In this document: positions 3,702 to 23,489 of the stretch, piece after piece
Layout of the letters: every line of letters starts with the position of its first letter
How positions within the stretch are numbered: the stretch's first letter is position 1
Virus record (IMG/VR): IMGVR_UViG_3300022687_000031
Span: 1 to 24,454 of that record
Direction: 5' to 3' (one strand)
Source: a virus
Length of the DNA: 24,454 bases
The notes under the pieces: model-generated
What the model was told of the DNA's origin: nothing
Seen by the model: only the letters and a program-made list of their open reading frames with translations
The model's database searches: none
Translations under genes and position numbers: made by a program

Positions 3702-5216
3702 ATGGCCGTTCTCTTCAACAATATCCCCGGCAACATTCGCGTTCCGCTGTTCTATGCAGAATTCAATGCCGGCGGGACGCCCTATCAGAATATCGCCCGC
3801 CTGCTGCTGATCGGGCAGATGCTCGACACCGGCACAGCAGCCGCCAACGTGCCGGTGGGTCCGATGCGCGATGGACAGGAAGACGGCTTCTTCGGCGCCG
3901 ACTCGATGCTCGCGCAGATGTACAAGATCGCTCGGGAGAACGCGCCGTTCCAGGAAATCTGGTGCCTGCCGCTCGCCGATGACGGCGCGGCCGTCGCCGC
4001 GACCGGCACGATCACCGTCGCCGGCACGCCCGTGGCGGCCGCCGGCACGCTCACGATCTATATCGCAGGCCATCGCGTCCGGATCCCGGTGAAGACCAGC
4101 GATGCCGAAGAGGATGTCTGCGCCAACCTGGTGGCCGCTATCAACGCGACGCCCGGCATGCCACTCACGGCTGCCGTGGACGGCGAGAATACAGAGGTCT
4201 GCAACCTTACTGCCAGGCATGGCGGGGCGCTCGGCAACGAGATCGCCATCGATCTCGATCTGATCGGCGATGAAGGCACCTACGGCGCAGACCTTCTGAC
4301 GATCGTTCCCATGGCAGACGGTGCGGGTGACCCGGAAATCGCCGATGCCCTCGACAGTCTTGGCACCGACGAGTTCGACTGGATCGGATCGCCCTATGCG
4401 GATGCGACCAATCTCGGCGCGGCCGACGATCTGCTGAATGACATTTCCGGCCGCTGGTCGCCCATTCAGCAGCTCTACGGCCACTACATCACCGCGAAAC
4501 AGGCAAACCTCGCCGGCCTCACGACGCTCGGGAACGGTCGCAACGATCAGCATGTGTCGATCATGGGCTACTACAGGTCGCCCACGCCGCCCTGGCTCTG
4601 GGCCGCGGCGGTGGCCGCAAAGGCTGCGCAGCATCTGCAGTCGGCCCCGGAGCTTTCCCGGCCGCTGCAGACCCTCGACCTGCGCGGCATCATCGCGCCG
4701 AAAATCGAGGACCGCTTCAACATCACCGAGCGCAATACGCTCTACTATGACGGGATCGCCGGCTTCCATGTCGAGCGCGACGGCACTGTCTCCATCGATC
4801 GGCTGATCACGACCTATCAACTGAACGAGTGGGGCAGCCCCGATGCGACGTGGCTGGACGTGAACACGCTGGCGCAGTCGATCTTCGGCATTCGCTATCT
4901 CAAGGCGAAGATCACGAACGCCCATGCGCGGCAAGCCCTGGCCGACTCCAACCCGCTTGGGCTGCAGGGGCTGGCCACGGCCGACGAGATCCGCAACACG
5001 ATGGTACACGGCTATGCCGAGCTGATCGCGCTGGGCGTGTTCGAGAATCTCGACCTGTTCGAGAACGATCTGATCGTCGAGCGGAACGCCACCGACGCGA
5101 ACCGGGTCGACTGCTACCTGCCGCTCGATCACGTCAACCAGCTGCGCATCATCGCGGTCAATGCGACCTCGTTCATGCAGCGCCGCAGCGCAGCCGACCA
5201 GCTGCTGGTGGCGTAG
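3702..5216 (+). CDS. Contractile tail sheath protein (Mu gpL-like)
   Basis: The 504-residue length is close to Mu gpL (495). It starts MAVLFNNIPGNIRVPLFYAEF, the usual N-terminus of Mu-type sheaths, followed by ARLLLIGQML. A beta-rich insert (about residues 105-200, GTITVAGTPVAAAGTLTIYI onward) is followed by the conserved core with GRWSPIQQLYGHYITAKQ, NDQHVSIMGYY, SPTPPWLWAAAVAA and a C-terminal domain with TTYQLNEWGSPD, which in this family joins neighbouring subunits. Sheath subunits form the outer cylinder that contracts and drives the tube through the envelope. GGGAGTAA just before the ATG is the ribosome binding site. It makes the particle a myovirus. Confidence 0.93.
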   Translation: MAVLFNNIPGNIRVPLFYAEFNAGGTPYQNIARLLLIGQMLDTGTAAANVPVGPMRDGQEDGFFGADSMLAQMYKIARENAPFQEIWCLPLADDGAAVAATGTITVAGTPVAAAGTLTIYIAGHRVRIPVKTSDAEEDVCANLVAAINATPGMPLTAAVDGENTEVCNLTARHGGALGNEIAIDLDLIGDEGTYGADLLTIVPMADGAGDPEIADALDSLGTDEFDWIGSPYADATNLGAADDLLNDISGRWSPIQQLYGHYITAKQANLAGLTTLGNGRNDQHVSIMGYYRSPTPPWLWAAAVAAKAAQHLQSAPELSRPLQTLDLRGIIAPKIEDRFNITERNTLYYDGIAGFHVERDGTVSIDRLITTYQLNEWGSPDATWLDVNTLAQSIFGIRYLKAKITNAHARQALADSNPLGLQGLATADEIRNTMVHGYAELIALGVFENLDLFENDLIVERNATDANRVDCYLPLDHVNQLRIIAVNATSFMQRRSAADQLLVA

Positions 5217-5256: not shown

Positions 5257-5640
5257 ATGGCCAAAGGACTGAACGCTGGCGGCCGGGTCGCCATCAAGCT
5301 GAACAACCAGTGGTACCACCCGGTGGGCGACGTCGAGATCGAGCCGACCGGCATCGCTCCGGAAGAAGTCGTAAACCAGGACGGGTCCGTGCAGCGCACC
5401 GTCACGCCGAAGCCGTACCGGTTCAAGATCAAGATCCGAGACCGCCAGGGGCTCGACATCGAGGCGCTGATGGCCGCACACGGCTTCGATGCGACGGTCG
5501 AGGAGATCGACATGAAGCGCAACGTCCTGCTGACGAACGCCTTCGCCGTCGGCGCGCCGAACCGCAACACCCAGAACGGCGAGATCACCGAGATCACGAT
5601 CGTCTCCGACCAGTACAAGCATATCGAGAGGGCGGCCTGA
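5257..5640 (+). CDS. Tail tube protein (Mu gpM-like)
   Basis: A 127-residue protein (Mu gpM is 118) that should polymerise as the inner tube inside the sheath. It has the usual features of the Mu-type tube family: N-terminal NAGGRVAIKLNNQWY, a central VQRTVTPKPYRFKIKI strand pair, and the C-terminal NVLLTNAFAVGAPNRNTQNGEI segment. An AGAGGA motif at 5244-5249 precedes the ATG. The gene is immediately downstream of the sheath. Its last two codons and stop codon lie inside a perfect 20-base palindrome followed by TTTT, described separately as a probable terminator. Confidence 0.9.
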   Translation: MAKGLNAGGRVAIKLNNQWYHPVGDVEIEPTGIAPEEVVNQDGSVQRTVTPKPYRFKIKIRDRQGLDIEALMAAHGFDATVEEIDMKRNVLLTNAFAVGAPNRNTQNGEITEITIVSDQYKHIERAA

Positions 5641-5683: not shown

Positions 5684-6103
5684 ATGACCGACGTGAAGCC
5701 TGCGGGCCCGCCGCAGCCCCCCAGCACCGCCACGGCCACAAGCGAAACGCCGGCGCCGGCCGCCCCAGCCAAGGCAAACGACGGCCTGCAGAAGGACGGG
5801 ACATGGCGGTTCACGCTGTCGCGGCCGCTGGAGACGCATGAGGGTCCGAAGTCGACCCTTACCCTCAAAGAGCCGCCAGGCATCATGATGCTCCGGCAAG
5901 GCCTGCCCTGGCGCAACAAGGTTCGTCCCAACGCCGCAGGCGGGGTGGACTGGATCGACGTCGAGTATGACGCTCCAAAGATGGCCGCGTACCTGGAAGC
6001 CATGAGCGGGCTGGAGCTGATGACGCTCGAAACGATGGCCGCGCGCGATCTGTCCGCCTGTTTCGACGCGATCTTCCACATGCTGCAGCCGGCGGGAAAC
6101 TGA
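5684..6103 (+). CDS. Tail assembly chaperone, zero-frame product (Mu gp41-like)
   Basis: A 139-residue protein with a Pro/Ala/Thr-rich, probably disordered N-terminus (about residues 1-36) and a conserved core: FTLSRPLETHEGPKSTLTLKEP, then GVDWIDVEYDAPKMAAYLEAM and LMTLETMAARDLSACFDAI. This matches the phage tail assembly chaperone family of Mu gp41 and P2 gpE. Such proteins coat the tape measure during tube polymerisation and are absent from the virion. AAAAAGG at about 5669-5674 is a good ribosome binding site. The gene lies between tube and tape measure, the invariant position. Its 3' end contains a -1 frameshift signal giving an extended form (see the next entries). Confidence 0.85.
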   Translation: MTDVKPAGPPQPPSTATATSETPAPAAPAKANDGLQKDGTWRFTLSRPLETHEGPKSTLTLKEPPGIMMLRQGLPWRNKVRPNAAGGVDWIDVEYDAPKMAAYLEAMSGLELMTLETMAARDLSACFDAIFHMLQPAGN

Positions 6104-6231
6104 CCGAGCGGGTCGACGAGCTGGTCTTTCTGTTCGGTTTCGACCCGCTGAGTGTTGGCGCCATGTCCCTGTCGGACATTCTCTACTGGCACGGCCGTGC
6201 CGTGATCTTCACCAAATCAAGGAACATGTGA
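5684..6231 (+). CDS. Tail assembly chaperone, -1 frameshifted long form
   Basis: Translation in the starting frame to base 6100, a -1 slip and continuation from the codon beginning at 6100 gives a 182-residue fusion. It adds 43 residues (LTERVDELVFLFGFDPLSVG, then SLSDILYWHGRAVIF) before the TGA at 6229-6231. The extension has the second-domain pattern of the frameshifted chaperones of long-tailed phages (lambda gpG-T, P2 E+E', Mu 41/42): a hydrophobic helix with a phenylalanine pair, then a D-x-L-x-W helix. The long form is thought to bind the tape measure while the short form binds tube subunits. No independent ribosome binding site is visible for the downstream frame. The tape-measure ATG follows three bases after its stop. 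Confidence 0.82.
6094..6149 (+). promoter_or_regulatory. Programmed -1 ribosomal frameshift signal
   Basis: G GGA AAC at 6094-6100 is a canonical X XXY YYZ slippery heptamer in phase with the chaperone frame, directly before its TGA (6101-6103). Lambda uses GGGAAAG at the same point in gpG/gpG-T. Six bases downstream, 6107-6116 (AGCGGGTCGA) and 6140-6149 (TCGACCCGCT) are perfectly complementary over 10 bp with a 23-base loop, giving a stimulatory stem-loop at the usual spacing. Heptamer, spacer, structure and an open -1 frame with a family-like extension all agree. Confidence 0.85.
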
Positions 6232-6234
6232 GCC

Positions 6235-8358
6235 ATGGCGCAGACCCTCCATGCCAAGGCCATCATCCAGGCCGTGGATGGTGTGTCGGGGCCGCTGGCG
6301 GGGATCGCGCGCTCGTTTGCGCGACTGGAGGGCCGGCTCGACCGGTCCGTAGGGGCATTGGGACGGGCAGCCTCCAGCACCGGCCGCGCGCTGACTTTCG
6401 GTGTAACGGCGCCCGCCGCCCTGGCGGTGAAGGCAACCGGCGAGCTGCAGGACGCCATGCTGGAATGGCAGAAGGCAGCCGACGAGCTCGACAATCCTGC
6501 GGCCTATGACGCAGCCAAGCGCGGGATCAAGGATCTCAGCAAGGAACTGCCGATATCCTCGGCGCGGCTGGCCAACATGGCCGCGTCGGCCTCACGGGCG
6601 GGCGTAGCATTTCGCGAGGTGCCGCAGTTTGTTCAGCTGGCGGCGCAGGCCGCCGAAGCCTTTAACCTGCAGGCGGAGACGGCGGGCGACGAGCTGGCCG
6701 GTCTCAAGCAGAGCGCGCGGCTCTCTGTTGATGGTTTGCGGATGCTGCTCGGGCAGATGGACCTGCTCGAGAACTCGATGAATGTGAAGGGTGCTCAGCT
6801 CGTCAACTTCCACAACCGGATCGGCGCGATCGGCCGCATGTCGGGCTTCACCGACGCCCAGCTCGCGGCGCTCGGCGCGACGATCATGGACAACAAGATC
6901 GAAACCGAAGTCGCCGCGACATCGGCAAAAAACCTGTTCAAGGTCCTGACCGGCGGGGCGGCGCTGCCGAAGCCGGCGATGAAGGTGTTCAAGCGCCTGG
7001 GAATGGATGCCCAGGACTTCGCCAAGGCCGTTCAGCAGGATGGCGTGAAGGCACTTGGTCAGCTGCGGAACCGCATTTACGACGTCATCCCGGAACATGA
7101 GCGCCTGTCGGCGCTGATGGAACTGTTCAAGGACCAGGCGGCGCCCGGTATCGCCTTGCTATTCCAGAACTGGGATAAATATCAGGCGGCGCTCAAACGG
7201 GTGGGCGACGAACAGAAGGCGCATCAGCAACTGCTCGCATCCTTCCAGATCAAGATGCAGGGCTTCAATCAGAAGCTGCAATTGTCGAAGAACCACCTGC
7301 TGTCGATCGCCGATACGCTCGCCACGCGCTGGGTCCCGACGATCGAGCAAGCCTTGGCCGTCGCCGTGGACTGGATGAGCCGGCTTGAGGCAACGCCGGG
7401 AATGCTGGACGCAATCGGCATCAGTATAGGGGCCCTGGCGGTCGCCGGTCCGATACTCTGGGCACTCGGCGCCGCACTGCAGGGCATCGTCTCGATCGTC
7501 GGCGCGGTCGGCAGGACATTCGCCTGGCTGGCAGGACTGAGCGCACGTTTTCTTGGCCCGATCGGCCTGATCGCGACCGTCGGTGCAGCGATCTACGCCA
7601 AATGGGACCTCGTCGCGCCGGCTTGGGAGCGGGCGAAGACAGCCGCCGGCGACCTGGCGACCGCTGTCGGCAGCCTCGTCGGTATCGACACATCGAAATG
7701 GAGCCTCGACGGACTGTTCGACACAATCAACACCGGAATAGCGGATGCGGCGGCAAAAGCTCTGAACCATCTGAGCACTGGCATTGAGAACCTGACCCGC
7801 GCGATCAAGGCTTTCAAGGAAGAAGGACTGGGCGGTGGGCTGAAGGGCCTGTTGAACTGGGCCTGGGAAGGGTCGGTTCCCGATATCGCCTTGGAGACGA
7901 TCAACAAGGGCCTGGAGGCCGCCAGAAAACGCCAAGGCGCCCGGATGCCCGACGGCACAGAACGGCCGCGCGAGCCGTTTGAGAGCCTCGGGATCTCGCC
8001 CAAGCGACCGGAAATCAATGGCGGCGGACCTTCGGTCCCCTCGGTGCCGCGTTCTATCGTGTCGCCGCAGCTGATGAAGAGCATGTTGGAGTACAGCCGG
8101 TCACAGCAGCAGCCGGCCAGTCAGGCCGCCGGCGCGGCGTCGCCAGGTGGCCTGGTGCGCGACATCACCCGGGGCGAAAGCGGTCCGCAGAAGATAGACG
8201 TCACGGGCAAGGTCGCAGCCGAGCTGACGGGCAAGGGCCAGGTCTTTGTCAATATCGCAGTGGACGGCCCCGGCCGCGTGACCGGGATCACTGCCAACGA
8301 TGACGGCAAGAACATCCAGTTGAATGCCGGCACCACCATGCAGGATTCGGGGCGCTAG
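6235..8358 (+). CDS. Tail tape measure protein
   Basis: At 707 residues it is the longest gene of the tail block, as expected of the protein that sets tail length. The N-terminal third resembles the TP901/PhageMin tape-measure domain (IKDLSKELPISSARLANMAA, VAFREVPQFVQLAAQAAEAF, LTGGAALPKPAMKVFKRLG). A hydrophobic stretch at about residues 390-460 (ISIGALAVAGPILWALGAAL and the following segment to IGLIATVGAAIYAKW) is the usual membrane-active region used for channel formation at infection. The C-terminal 150 residues are Pro/Ser/Gly-rich. AAGGAA just upstream overlaps the end of the frameshifted chaperone frame, linking translation of the two partners. The stop TAG abuts the next ATG with no gap. 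Confidence 0.9.
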   Translation: MAQTLHAKAIIQAVDGVSGPLAGIARSFARLEGRLDRSVGALGRAASSTGRALTFGVTAPAALAVKATGELQDAMLEWQKAADELDNPAAYDAAKRGIKDLSKELPISSARLANMAASASRAGVAFREVPQFVQLAAQAAEAFNLQAETAGDELAGLKQSARLSVDGLRMLLGQMDLLENSMNVKGAQLVNFHNRIGAIGRMSGFTDAQLAALGATIMDNKIETEVAATSAKNLFKVLTGGAALPKPAMKVFKRLGMDAQDFAKAVQQDGVKALGQLRNRIYDVIPEHERLSALMELFKDQAAPGIALLFQNWDKYQAALKRVGDEQKAHQQLLASFQIKMQGFNQKLQLSKNHLLSIADTLATRWVPTIEQALAVAVDWMSRLEATPGMLDAIGISIGALAVAGPILWALGAALQGIVSIVGAVGRTFAWLAGLSARFLGPIGLIATVGAAIYAKWDLVAPAWERAKTAAGDLATAVGSLVGIDTSKWSLDGLFDTINTGIADAAAKALNHLSTGIENLTRAIKAFKEEGLGGGLKGLLNWAWEGSVPDIALETINKGLEAARKRQGARMPDGTERPREPFESLGISPKRPEINGGGPSVPSVPRSIVSPQLMKSMLEYSRSQQQPASQAAGAASPGGLVRDITRGESGPQKIDVTGKVAAELTGKGQVFVNIAVDGPGRVTGITANDDGKNIQLNAGTTMQDSGR

Positions 8359-15067: not shown

Positions 15068-16939
15068 GTGACATTCTCATTTGACGGCCGTGGTGCGGTG
15101 AAGGTCCGGCCGCGGCACAAGCGGCCCTTGTCGCGCCGGAACTGGGCGCGTGACGAAACCGCGCCGGGTGAGGCCGATGGCACGGTCATCACCGCGAGCC
15201 TGGTGAACCTGATCGTCGCCAACTTCCGCCGCCTAGTCGACGCGTCGGGTGAGCCGCTCAGGGAAGGGGCGGACGACAACCTGCTGCGGGCCGTACAGCG
15301 GATCTGCAGCGACGCGGTGGAAGCCTTTCAGGGTGTTCACGAAAATCTCGCCGCTCTCCAGGCGGCGCTGCCAGAGGCCGAGGCCGGGGACTGGGCTATT
15401 CTCAGCCATGGCGAGGACCCGGCGACCATCGCCCTTTGGGACACGGATTCGGAGCCGGCGGACTGGGTCGATACGGTAGAATCCCTCCCGGGGTCCAGTC
15501 TCTCCACCAGCCGGGATGCCGACAGCGTAACAGTGGAGAATTCGAGCGGGACCGCCGGGACGATTCTCGCGGCGGACGCGGACCATGCCGGCGCGATGAG
15601 CGCGGCCGACAAGTCGAAGCTCGAAGGTATCGAAGCCGGCGCGACGGCCGATCCGACCGGCGCGGCGCTCCGAACGCTTTACGGCTCAGAAGCCGACACC
15701 AACATTTTCACGGACGCGAAAGCCTCGAAGCTCGCCGGGATCGAGGCCGGTGCGACAGCCGATCAGACCGGACCGGAGTTGAAAGCCGCGTATGAGGGCG
15801 AAACGGAGACCAACGACTTTACCGATGCCGAGAAGACGAAGCTCGACGGCATCGAGGCCGGCGCGACAGCCGATCAGACCGGACCGGAGCTGAAGGCCGC
15901 CTATGAGGGCGAGTCGGAGACCAACGCCTTTACCGATGCCGAGAAGACGACGCTCGCCGGGCTCGAGACCGGCGCGACCAACGGTGCCGGCATTCAGGCA
16001 TGGATGCACAACCGTGCGGTGCGGGAGTGGAAGGCGCGTGTCAGCCCTGCCGACAAAGACTGGTTCGGGATTGCCTGGTCGCCGGAGCTGGAGCTCTTCG
16101 CGGCGGTCGCATTCGGCGGCACCGGGAACAGGGCGATGACTTCGCCAGACGGCATCAGCTGGACCGCGCGCGCAACTCCGGCCGACAACGACTGGCAGAA
16201 AATAGCCTGGTCGCCGGAGCTTGGACTCTTCGCGTCGGTTGCAGTCAGCGGTACCGGGGACCGTGTGATGACGAGCCCGGACGGCATCACCTGGACCTTG
16301 CGTGCCAGCGCCTCCGATTTGAACTGGTTCGACATCGCCTGGTCGCCGGAGCTTGGGCTGTTCGCGGCCGTTGCCGCCAGTGGATCCGGAAGCCGGGTGA
16401 TGACCAGTCCCGACGGCATCAACTGGACGCTGCGCTCCACGCCAGACGATCAGAGCTGGTTCGGGGTCGCCTGGTCCCCGGAACTTGGACTGTTTGCGGC
16501 CGTCGCCGGCAGTGGCTCCGGAAGCCGGGTGATGACCAGCCCCGACGGCATCAACTGGACATTGCGCAGCACGCCGGCGGACAACCTCTGGCTCCGGATC
16601 GCCTGGTCGCCGGAGCTTGGGCTGTTCGCGGCCGTTGCCACCAGTGGTTCCGGCAATCGGGTAATGACGAGCCCGGACGGCGTCAACTGGACGCTGCGCT
16701 CCACACCAGCCGACAACAGCTGGCAATCGATCGCCTGGGCATCAGATCTTGGGCTTTTTGCCGCCGTCGCGGCGTCGGGCAGCGGCAATCGTGTGATGAC
16801 CAGCGCCGACGGCGTCAACTGGACCCTTCGCGCGAGTTCCGCCGACAACCAGTGGGCGGCTGTCGCGTGGTCGCCAGAACGGGCTCTCTTCGCCGCGGTC
16901 GCGGTGGACGGCGACGTTCGCGTGATGACGAGCCGATAG
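15068..16939 (+). CDS. Tail fibre A with stalk repeats and a predicted seven-bladed beta-propeller
   Basis: A 623-residue protein with a GTG start, chosen because MTFSFDG aligns exactly with the start of the paralogue downstream. Layout: shared N-terminal segment (residues about 37-80, DGTVITASLVNLIVANFRRL), a domain with GDWAILSHGEDPATIALWD, four 37-residue stalk repeats from residue 184 (KLxGIEAGATADQTGPELKA type), then from residue 332 seven 44-residue repeats of the form WxxIAWSPELGLFAAVA, SGSGNRVMTSPDGINWTLRS, TPADN. SPDGxxWT resembles an Asp-box turn of beta-propellers. The seventh repeat stops after VMTSR, and a matching strand (REWKARVSPADK) precedes repeat 1, as expected for ring closure. 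The likely role is host-surface, probably glycan, binding. No catalytic motif was seen. Confidence 0.8.
   Translation: MTFSFDGRGAVKVRPRHKRPLSRRNWARDETAPGEADGTVITASLVNLIVANFRRLVDASGEPLREGADDNLLRAVQRICSDAVEAFQGVHENLAALQAALPEAEAGDWAILSHGEDPATIALWDTDSEPADWVDTVESLPGSSLSTSRDADSVTVENSSGTAGTILAADADHAGAMSAADKSKLEGIEAGATADPTGAALRTLYGSEADTNIFTDAKASKLAGIEAGATADQTGPELKAAYEGETETNDFTDAEKTKLDGIEAGATADQTGPELKAAYEGESETNAFTDAEKTTLAGLETGATNGAGIQAWMHNRAVREWKARVSPADKDWFGIAWSPELELFAAVAFGGTGNRAMTSPDGISWTARATPADNDWQKIAWSPELGLFASVAVSGTGDRVMTSPDGITWTLRASASDLNWFDIAWSPELGLFAAVAASGSGSRVMTSPDGINWTLRSTPDDQSWFGVAWSPELGLFAAVAGSGSGSRVMTSPDGINWTLRSTPADNLWLRIAWSPELGLFAAVATSGSGNRVMTSPDGVNWTLRSTPADNSWQSIAWASDLGLFAAVAASGSGNRVMTSADGVNWTLRASSADNQWAAVAWSPERALFAAVAVDGDVRVMTSR
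15617..16060 (+). repeat. 111-bp stalk repeats of fibre A, about four units
   Basis: Units start at 15617, 15728, 15839 and 15950, spaced exactly 111 bases (37 codons). Each has K-L-x-G-(I/L)-E-(A/T)-G-A-T near its start and TNxFTDAEKT near its end. The fourth copy is truncated at GATNGAGIQAW, where it leads into the propeller. The spacing is the same as in fibre B. Confidence 0.85.
16061..16939 (+). repeat. 132-bp propeller-blade repeats of fibre A, seven units
   Basis: The first tryptophan codon of each unit lies at 16061, 16193, 16325, 16457, 16589, 16721 and 16853, an invariant 132-base period. The tryptophan at 16028 stands 33 bases before unit 1, the same distance that separates the WTLRS tryptophan from the next unit elsewhere. 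The last unit lacks its final strand. Long stretches are nearly identical at DNA level between units 3, 4 and 5. Confidence 0.9.
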
Positions 16940-16947
16940 GAGCATTC

Positions 16948-18807
16948 ATGACATTCTCGTTTGACGGCGCGAACGCCGTCACAGAGCGCCCCGCGCACAA
17001 GCAAGCGGCGAGCTTGCGGAACTGGGCGCTGGACGAAAGCTATCCCGGCGCCGGCGACGGGACGCGGATCACCGCGAGCTTTGCCAATGCCATTGTCGCC
17101 AACCTGCGGGCGCTGGTCGACGGCGTCGATGAGCAGTTACTCGAGGGCGCGAACGACAATCTTTTGCGCGCCGTCCAAAAGGCGGCGGCCGACGCCACCA
17201 TGAATTTCAAGGGCGTCCACGCGGATCTCGGGGCTCTGCAGGCAGCACACCCCACCGCAGCCTCCGGCAACTGGGCAATCCTGAGCCATGGCGAGGATCC
17301 GGCGACGATCGCTGCCTGGGATCCTGACTCGGACCCGGCCGGTTGGGTAGACACGGCACTGAGCGGCGGCGCCGACCTGAGCGTCAGCCGCGACGTCGAC
17401 AGCGTCACCGTCGAAAGCTCCAGCGGTACGAACGCCGTAATTCCGGCCGCCGACACGAGCGATGCCGGTGTGATGACGGCAGCGGACAAGACGAAACTGG
17501 ACGGTGTCGAGGACGGGGCGACGGGTGATCTGACGGGCACCGAGATCAAGACGCTCTACGAGGCCGAAGACGATACCAATGCCTTTACCGATGACGAGAA
17601 AACGAAGCTCGCCGGCATCGAGGACGGGGCGACGGGTGATCTCACCGGTGCCGAGATCAAGACGCTCTACGAGGCCGAGGGCGATACGAACGCTTTCACC
17701 GATGACGAGAAAACGAAGCTCGGCGGGATCGAGGACGGGGCGACGGGTGATCTCACCGGGGCCGAGATCAAGGCACTGTACGAGGCCGAGGGCAACACGA
17801 ACGCCTTTACCGACGGCGAGAAGACGAAGCTTGCCGGCATCGAGGACGGCGCGACCAACGATGCCGGGGCCAGGGCCTGGGCCCAGAATGCGGCGACAAG
17901 AGAGTGGATAAGCCGCGTCACGCCGGATGCCAGGAGTTGGCAAGGGATTGCCTGGTCGCCGGAGCTGGGGCTGTTCGCTGCGATTTCGAATGATGGTGAA
18001 GGCAGCGACATCATGACGAGTCCTGACGGCATCACCTGGACGCTGCGCACCACGCCGGGCAGCACTGCCTGGAGAGCAATTGCCTGGTCGCCGGAGCTGG
18101 GGCTGTTCGCGGCGGTCTCTGACGACGAGAGCGGCAATGACGCCATGACGAGCCCCGACGGCGTTGTCTGGACGGTGCGGAGCACGCCCGCCCAGCAGTG
18201 GATCGCGATCGCCTGGTCGCCCGAACTTGAGCTGTTTGCGGCCGTATCTATAGGCGGCGAGGGGAACGACGTCATGACAAGTCCCGACGGACTCACCTGG
18301 ACGGCGCGCACGACTCCTGCACAGCAATGGACCTCGATCGCCTGGTCGCCCGCATTGGGGCTGTTCGCAGCCGTTTGCGAGGACGGCAGCGGCAACGACG
18401 TCATGACGAGCCCTGACGGTCTCGCCTGGACGGCGCGCACGACTCCTGCACAGCGATGGAAATCGATCGCCTGGTCGCCCGACCTGGGGTTGTTCGCTGC
18501 GATTTCGGATGATGGCGCCGGCAACGACGTCATGACGAGCCCCAACGGTGTCATCTGGACGCTGCGGAACACTCAAGGCAGCAACAATTGGATAGCGATC
18601 GCGTGGTCACCCGAGTTGGGGCTGTTCGCAGCCGTTTGCGAGGACGGCAGTGGCAACGATGTCATGACAAGTCCTGACGGTCTCGCCTGGACGCTGCGCA
18701 GCACGCCGACGCTGCCCTGCAAGGACATCGCCTGGTCGCCCGAGCTTTGTCTGTTTGCCGCCGTCTCCGATGACGGCAGTGGCAACGACGCCATGACCAG
18801 CCTTTAG
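16948..18807 (+). CDS. Tail fibre B, paralogue of fibre A, with seven-bladed beta-propeller
   Basis: A 619-residue protein beginning at the ATG at 16948, with AGGAG at 16938-16942 overlapping the stop of fibre A. The frame is open far upstream inside fibre A, but only this start aligns with the paralogue. The architecture is the same, domain by domain: shared N-terminal segment from residue 37, NWAILSHGEDPATIAAWD, four 37-residue stalk repeats from residue 183 (KLAGIEDGATGDLTGAEIKT type), and seven blades from residue 331 with IAWSPELGLFAAV, GSGNDVMTSPDG and WT(L/A)R(T/S)TP. Blade length alternates between 43 and 44. The strand REWISRVTPD before blade 1 supplies the piece missing from blade 7. 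Acidic blade loops (DDGSGND) contrast with basic ones in fibre A, suggesting a different ligand. Confidence 0.8.
   Translation: MTFSFDGANAVTERPAHKQAASLRNWALDESYPGAGDGTRITASFANAIVANLRALVDGVDEQLLEGANDNLLRAVQKAAADATMNFKGVHADLGALQAAHPTAASGNWAILSHGEDPATIAAWDPDSDPAGWVDTALSGGADLSVSRDVDSVTVESSSGTNAVIPAADTSDAGVMTAADKTKLDGVEDGATGDLTGTEIKTLYEAEDDTNAFTDDEKTKLAGIEDGATGDLTGAEIKTLYEAEGDTNAFTDDEKTKLGGIEDGATGDLTGAEIKALYEAEGNTNAFTDGEKTKLAGIEDGATNDAGARAWAQNAATREWISRVTPDARSWQGIAWSPELGLFAAISNDGEGSDIMTSPDGITWTLRTTPGSTAWRAIAWSPELGLFAAVSDDESGNDAMTSPDGVVWTVRSTPAQQWIAIAWSPELELFAAVSIGGEGNDVMTSPDGLTWTARTTPAQQWTSIAWSPALGLFAAVCEDGSGNDVMTSPDGLAWTARTTPAQRWKSIAWSPDLGLFAAISDDGAGNDVMTSPNGVIWTLRNTQGSNNWIAIAWSPELGLFAAVCEDGSGNDVMTSPDGLAWTLRSTPTLPCKDIAWSPELCLFAAVSDDGSGNDAMTSL
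17494..17937 (+). repeat. 111-bp stalk repeats of fibre B, about four units
   Basis: Units start at 17494, 17605, 17716 and 17827, each 111 bases apart. GATGDLTG and TNAFTD are repeated almost unchanged at protein level. At DNA level units 1 to 3 share long identical runs such as GAGGACGGGGCGACGGGTGA. The last unit ends at GATNDAGARAW, parallel to fibre A. Confidence 0.85.
17938..18807 (+). repeat. 129/132-bp propeller-blade repeats of fibre B, seven units
   Basis: Anchor codons lie at 17938, 18070, 18199, 18328, 18457, 18589 and 18718, giving spacings of 132, 129, 129, 129, 132 and 129 bases. The last anchor is TGC (Cys) instead of TGG (Trp). The closing tryptophan upstream is at 17905, again 33 bases before unit 1. 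Confidence 0.9.
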
Positions 18808-22568: not shown

Positions 22569-22958
22569 GGAGCACCTCTTGCAGCTCATCCTGCTAGCAT
22601 CAACTCTAACGCGAACTCGATTTGATCTGTAGCGCTTATGACACAGATAGATCGACAGCCCAAGGGCACTAGGACGCTCTTTCCTTGTATTTGTCCTTTT
22701 CTACCCGCCAGCTATCGTCCTCCAGCCTACAGCCTACAACTTGGCGCCACGCTTGTTCGTTTGGATTTCCGCTTATGAGAGTCCAGCGCGGCCGATCCAA
22801 TGACCGGCATGCGGGCGCGAAGCGGAAGTTCACCACATCGGTTCAGCCGATGCACATTTATGAGTATACCGCCTAAGCGTAGCGCTTCTGACAAATCCGA
22901 GTTCCCGTTGACGTTCATCACATGGCATGATGCCGGCGAGGGGAGTACAGGAGTCGTC
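22569..22958. other. Divergent intergenic region between the minus-strand gene and gam
   Basis: No gene supported. It holds the promoters for two divergent genes, but no clear sigma-70 pair was found: TTGACG at 22908-22913 is a fair -35 for gam without a good -10 at 17 bases. A 15-base near-repeat, GTAGCGCTTATGACA (22629-22643) and GTAGCGCTTCTGACA (22879-22893), and one degenerate CGAAGCGGAAGTT core (22818-22830) are present. Confidence 0.45.
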
Positions 22959-23489
22959 ATGAGCAGCCAGGCTGTCAAAACCCTCAGCCCAACCGCGCGC
23001 CAGATCGGCGATATCGGCGAGATCGATCGCAAGCTCGCCAGGATCCAGTCCACCCTCGATACCGCGACCGCGAAGGCGAAGGAGAAGGCGGAGAAGACCG
23101 CCGCTCCGCTGATCGTCCAGCGTGAGAAGCTGGTCGACAAGGTGAAGCAGTACTGCAACGACAATCGCGACGAGCTGACCGAGCGCGGCAAGCGCAAGTT
23201 CGCCGATTTCCCGACCGGCCGGGTGAGTTGGCGCAAGGGGCGGCCCAAGCTCGAGTTCCCAAAGGACGACGAGGACCGCATCGTCATCGACCTGAAATCC
23301 GCGAAGCTGAAACGCTTCGTGCGCGTGAAGGAGACGGTGAATGTCAAGGCGATCCTCGACGCCGGCGACAAGATCATCGAGAAGGTGACGGCGATCGACG
23401 GTGTCACGCATGTCCCTGCCGGCGAGACTTTCAACGTCGATCCGGTTCAGGTGGATCTCGCGACGAAGTCGAAGGGCGCGGCGAAGTAG
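22959..23489 (+). CDS. gam: Mu-type host-nuclease inhibitor Gam
   Basis: A 176-residue protein (Mu Gam is 174). AGGAG at about 22949-22953 and the following ATG at 22959 fix the start. An in-frame ATG at 22800 has no binding site and would add a non-conserved, AT-rich stretch. A long helical region (residues 15-75, IGEIDRKLARIQSTLDTATA and KEKAEKTAAPLIVQREKLVD) is followed by the conserved core FADFPTGRVSWRKGRPKLE and the C-terminal GVTHVPAGETFNVDPVQ, all typical of the family. Gam dimers bind duplex DNA ends, in the manner of Ku, and protect them from exonucleases. In Mu it belongs to the early region beside transposition genes. Here it stands alone, with phage-like GC content, beyond an AT-rich block. 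Confidence 0.88.
   Translation: MSSQAVKTLSPTARQIGDIGEIDRKLARIQSTLDTATAKAKEKAEKTAAPLIVQREKLVDKVKQYCNDNRDELTERGKRKFADFPTGRVSWRKGRPKLEFPKDDEDRIVIDLKSAKLKRFVRVKETVNVKAILDAGDKIIEKVTAIDGVTHVPAGETFNVDPVQVDLATKSKGAAK

Follow-up and report, generated by a model that had tools for sequence, protein, structure and literature searches.

A Predicted −1 Programmed Frameshift in the Tail Assembly Chaperone Gene of a Mu/P2-like Contractile-Tailed Phage

The gene at positions 5684–6103 of a viral DNA stretch of 24,454 nucleotides (record IMGVR_UViG_3300022687_000031, positions 1–24,454, hereafter the window) is, with a probability of about 0.92 in our estimation, the tail assembly chaperone gene of a Mu/P2-like contractile-tailed phage and makes a 182-residue protein by predicted −1 slippage. 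The putative event would be a new member of an established class, the −1 programmed frameshifts in the tail assembly chaperone genes of tailed phages (G/GT type). This reading is supported by the synteny of the tail module, by the GpE domain encoded in the −1 frame, and by the retention of the heptamer and an open −1 frame in many diverged relatives.

Structure of the Predicted Frameshift Site

The site and the tail genes considered here lie on the plus strand. Direct reading shows that the zero frame of the chaperone gene ends with the codons ...CCG GCG GGA AAC TGA. The slippery heptamer G_GGA_AAC occupies positions 6094–6100 and is in phase with the gene, as the original prediction, made from the letters of this DNA, had proposed. 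The same prediction placed the heptamer one codon before the stop; the proximity holds and the distance does not, since TGA (6101–6103) adjoins the heptamer with zero codons between them. The proposed six-base spacer was found as TGACCG (6101–6106, 6 nt), and so was the perfect 10-bp stem, in which the 5' arm AGCGGGTCGA (6107–6116) pairs with the 3' arm TCGACCCGCT (6140–6149) around a 23-base loop (6117–6139). Both arms were identified by sequence, fold and stem count, and according to the fold prediction the loop is itself able to form a small inner hairpin. The fragment 6094–6160 folds with −28.6 kcal/mol (z −2.6), and 1 of 200 shuffles was as good.

The −1 frame is open from 5971 to 6231, across the site. 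After the slip codon it encodes the 43 residues that had been claimed for it (6100–6231 with the stop codon, whose last base is 6231), with the translation LTERVDELVFLFGFDPLSVGAMSLSDILYWHGRAVIFTKSRNM, and the ATG of the tape measure gene follows at 6235, 4 nt after the end of this frame. The predicted long form would consist of 182 amino acids and the short zero-frame form of 139. The junction of the zero and −1 frames is predicted to give the peptide DLSACFDAIFHMLQPAGNLTER (or ...GKLTER), and VDELVFLFGFDPLSVGAMSLSDILYWHGR is a further peptide marking the predicted long form.

Elements of this kind are rare in the window. Only 3 in-phase heptamers of the types X XXA AAZ and X XXT TTZ occur in the 6113 codons of its 22 genes, and perfect 10-bp stems with loops of 3–25 nucleotides have only 3 start positions in 24.4 kb; such a stem starts 4–9 nt downstream of 0.07% of random points. 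The rare heptamer and the rare stem meet at the end of the chaperone gene, together with a −1 frame matching PF06528, and a chance origin of this arrangement is excluded.

Tail Module and Encoded Proteins

The module in the window includes genes of a capsid protein E family member, the tail sheath (3702–5216; PF04984, E 1.4e-22), the tail tube (5257–5640; PF10618, E 1.3e-10), the chaperone, the tape measure protein (6235–8358; PF10145, E 1.7e-23), a DNA circularisation protein, a Mu gpP/gp44-like hub and a baseplate wedge. The chaperone was recognised as an open reading frame by its position between tube and tape measure and by a weak match of the 139-residue zero-frame protein to the tail protein family phrog_166 (E 1.9e-4). 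No match of this protein to PF10109 (Phage_TAC_7) was obtained in the Pfam search at E 0.1. This family was matched by 8 of 9 related zero-frame proteins, several of them below the cut-off, with E-values of 2.1e-4 in L034, the nearest relative by sheath, 2.6e-9 in L079 and 3.6e-11 in Serratia phage BZS1. The chaperone also gave a weak Pfam match with ethylbenzene dehydrogenase (E 0.004), which was far under the cut-off of that family and was dismissed as due to chance.

The suggestion that the −1 frame encodes a second chaperone domain is borne out by the match of its residues (6121–6207) to PF06528, Phage_P2_GpE (E 4.5e-5), which in a second search had an E-value of 4.9e-4 and 20 bits, under the cut-off of 23. 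The same residues match the tail protein family phrog_6416 (E 2.6e-5), and PF06528 was also found in the extensions of 4 of 8 related members, with the best E-value of 2.4e-6.

It might be supposed that the GpE part is a separate small protein, made without any frameshift by reinitiation after TGA or by internal initiation, as the second chaperone part is annotated as a separate gene in some records (CcrSC, RXM) and the only ATG in the −1 frame of the window (Met24 in the alignment of the extensions) does not vary among the eight extensions aligned. However, translation from this ATG would yield a product of about 20 residues with a truncated GpE domain, whose beginning lies upstream, and ATG, GTG and TTG are all absent from the −1 frame between the heptamer and Met24. 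Separate initiation also leaves the conserved in-phase heptamer unexplained. We consider independent initiation very unlikely and reject it on account of the too short Met24 product and the unexplained heptamer.

Elsewhere in the window, positions 15068–18807 contain two tail-fibre-like genes in tandem. They resemble each other at the N-terminus (MTFSFDG...) and have repeated W-rich units (MTSPDG..WT), and the second gene sits within a longer mechanical open reading frame starting at 16000. After the late genes, an open reading frame on the plus strand (22800–23489) presumably resembles a Mu Gam-like host-nuclease inhibitor.

Conservation in Relatives

Homologue searches with the short chaperone, in viral contigs and phages, and with the DNA circularisation protein found nothing, and therefore the tail sheath was used as a search handle, by which about 100 viral and genomic loci were gathered. 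The alignment of the short −1-frame extensions was too variable to serve as a query. The expected conservation of a heptamer and an open −1 frame was confirmed in around 70 sheath-homologous loci, most of those extending into this region, where the −1 frame, with a GpE-like stretch, runs on from the in-phase heptamer at the chaperone end to the tape measure gene. The heptamers of relatives are mostly of the TTTTTTN type. Those with GGGAAAC are L034, L032, L079, L033, L006 and L083, which belong to the clade of the window (SH-aLRT 97 in a quick sheath tree, where L022 is on a long branch), as well as L022, L077, L136, L140 and L144.

In seven annotated Mu-like records, identified by sheath homology, the short chaperone alone is listed and the tape measure gene is preceded by a gap without annotation, in agreement with the claim that standard gene calling would lose the long form.

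These comparisons bear on the idea that the two frames are the remains of one fused gene, split by an indel or a sequencing error with no programmed shift involved. Indel errors can occur in metagenomic virus records such as that of the window, but the same break is situated at the same heptamer in the independent contigs L032, L033, L034, L079 and L083 and at another heptamer in most other relatives. Moreover, the stop stays at the heptamer while the codons that form it change, which decay would not bring about. The probability of gene decay or an indel is, in our opinion, practically negligible, and this explanation was rejected because the break recurs in independent contigs.

The manner in which the frames are connected is variable in the family. 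L045 (5873–6443), from the window's sheath clade, apparently reaches its GpE-like frame by a +1 (or −2) shift, with TCC TTT CAG near the chaperone end. At the chaperone end, L002 (6340–6400), L049 (6186–6389) and L076 (6209–6439), the last two being members of the same clade, have an overlapping −1 frame that is GpE-like or open, and no X_XXY_YYZ heptamer was found in these three loci or in L011 and L025, which also have such a frame. In L003 (6349–6380) and the same region of L008, G GGA AAC is in phase, but an in-frame TAG is located a few codons upstream, so that the zero frame is closed before the heptamer is reached. These differences of L045, L049, L076 and L003/L008 from the window indicate that both the direction of the shift and the heptamer vary within the family. 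Shifts of −1, −2 or +1 are used in the chaperone genes of different phages (PMC5009743).

It could accordingly be asked whether the frames in the window are joined by some event other than tandem −1 slippage on GGGAAAC, for instance by a +1 or −2 shift or by transcriptional slippage, as −2 (in Mu) and +1 shifts are known from chaperone genes elsewhere among phages (PMC5009743) and L045 appears to need +1. In the window, however, the extension and its GpE match are in the −1 frame, not reached by +1 or by a Mu-type −2 shift, and the slip sequence is a −1 heptamer of the classical kind. For transcriptional slippage, a homopolymer longer than the runs at this site, which do not exceed three, is normally required. 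Such events are extremely unlikely here, and −1 slippage on G_GGA_AAC is preferred.

Downstream Stem

Compensatory changes in the stem of the window, which had been predicted for its homologues, did not appear: in an ungapped alignment of seven sites, 51% of cells were paired and RNAalifold gave no consensus. The prediction fails because relatives have other stems in other registers, or none. Thus, L034, L032, L079 and L083 each possess a strong stem of their own in a register differing from that of the window, and folding of L033, L022 and L077 revealed only weak downstream structure. Over all heptamer sites, downstream structure was not stronger than that of upstream controls (p 0.29). Sites of the XXXAAAC type lean to downstream structure (median z −1.0 vs. 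−0.1, p 0.006), the relatives in this comparison not being independent of each other. Since the pairs are not kept and some relatives are devoid of a strong stem, the stem of the window may be regarded as a plausible stimulator in this phage, not as a conserved element.

Stop Codon Adjoining the Heptamer

The stop codon directly after the heptamer recurs in relatives and in unrelated phages. Among the first nine GGGAAAC relatives, the window included, it was found in seven, as TGA, TAA or TAG. A stop likewise directly adjoins the heptamer in Colossus (GGGAAAC), in phiCbK (AAAAAAC) and its relatives CcrSC, Rogue, R5C, Pan1, RXM and RcXuper, and in the archaeal virus HCTV-2. In Gurke, Bajun, Bambus and Xp15, the sequence AAC TCC TAA places it one codon later. 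Published or annotated XXXAAAC sites of unrelated phages (L123, 15651–16064; L124, 8859–9287; L128, 24176–24652; L164–L173) have the stop at a distance of 0 or 1 codon. Exceptions are HCTV-1 (9 codons later), L077 (9), L144 (7) and L006 (2). The stop is often built with codons that are rare in these phages, such as CTA in phiCbK, which represents 1 of 359 Leu codons sampled, and AGG in L034, a codon absent among the sheath and tape measure codons counted.

In total, 26 XXXAAAC chaperone sites belonging to three kinds of tail module were compared, and in 22 of them the zero-frame stop is 0–1 codon from the heptamer (at 0 in 17). The corresponding count for TTTTTTN sites, near-copies kept, is 4 of 58, with none at 0. 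With the amino acids of the −1 frame and codon usage taken into account, the latter proxied from phiCbK or Colossus for several short loci, 8.7 such stops would be expected at the XXXAAAC sites (nominal p 5e-13). Because the relatives are akin and not independent, and the sampling of the 26 sites was partly guided by known cases and not blind, we accept the direction of this bias and not its number.

These data suggest that the adjoining stop is part of the frameshift signal or guards it. The more general proposal, that selection has made a zero-frame stop 0–1 codon downstream of the heptamer a functional component of the signal at XXXAAAC chaperone sites, is in our estimation evenly balanced between true and false. 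With AAC in the P site and a stop in the A site, the ribosome could be detained during re-pairing of the tRNAs, and stop-assisted slippage of this type could offset the weakness of an AAC heptamer in E. coli. Alternatively, the stop could clear non-shifting ribosomes before they unwind the downstream structure; the cases with the stop one codon later fit ribosome clearing better than ribosome holding. A plainer third reading remains, namely that the short form simply has to end at a stop.

A zero-frame stop directly after the shift site was noted for some bacterial dnaX candidates (PMC5009743), and stop distance is one of the features of the program PRFect, since true sites are situated close to a stop (PMC10885494). 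A heptamer-specific stop rule was not found in the searchable literature, most subscription papers, including Xu et al. 2004, being outside this search.

Proposed Mechanism and Comparison with Known Systems

That slippage occurs, how efficient it is, in which ratio the products arise and what each of them does are inferences. Most ribosomes would terminate at TGA 6101, giving the 139-residue short form, and a minority, held up by the stem at 6107–6149, would slip back by one base on G_GGA_AAC. After re-pairing from GGA_AAC to GGG_AAA, translation would continue to 6231 and result in the 182-residue form carrying the GpE domain. On the model of lambda gpG/gpGT and P2 E/E+E', the short form may coat the tape measure protein, and the added GpE domain may recruit tail tube subunits, so that the long form would link tape measure and tube. 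In lambda, gpG attaches to the tape measure and the T part to the major tail subunit, and the proportion of the two proteins is important (PMC5009743). The efficiency of an AAC heptamer in the host is uncertain, since in E. coli far less shifting takes place on A_AAA_AAC than on A_AAA_AAG (PMC5009743).

The closest likeness is to systems in which the tape measure gene is preceded by a two-form chaperone. P2 E/E+E', with the domains PF10109 and PF06528, shares with the window a contractile tail, a short chaperone and a long form obtained by a −1 shift into a short GpE part just before the tape measure gene. P2 slips on a T-run heptamer, whereas the window uses G_GGA_AAC with an adjoining stop, and its zero-frame protein is too diverged to match PF10109. 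Lambda G/GT follows the same logic with a GGGAAA-type slip site (GGGAAAG), but lambda is a siphophage with an unrelated and longer T domain, AAG as the second codon and the stop 5 codons later. Colossus and phiCbK also have chaperones before the tape measure and a zero-frame stop directly adjoining the heptamer, as in the window, but these are large siphophages with an unrelated, longer −1-frame part. Their heptamers, GGGAAAC in the chaperone gene of the Caulobacter phage Colossus and AAAAAAC in that of phiCbK, are reported in PMC3556154, and GGGAAAC was also given for the HCTV-1 chaperone (PMC5009743).

The original prediction referred to frameshifting in lambda, P2 and Mu. A −1 shift holds for the first two; in the gp41 region of Mu, which has the same gene order as the window and a homologous sheath, the shift is −2 (PMC5009743, PMC2628397).

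Conclusions

The chaperone frameshift was described as a conserved device by Xu, Hendrix and Duda in 2004, as cited in PMC2628397 and PMC5009743. The site in the window would be one more case of it, and its main value is in annotation, particularly for relatives whose annotation lacks the long chaperone form. The position of the stop directly at the heptamer of XXXAAAC chaperone sites in unrelated phages, in contrast to TTTTTTN sites, would provide a simple sequence rule for finding such sites and would connect termination with −1 slippage in bacteria in a testable way.
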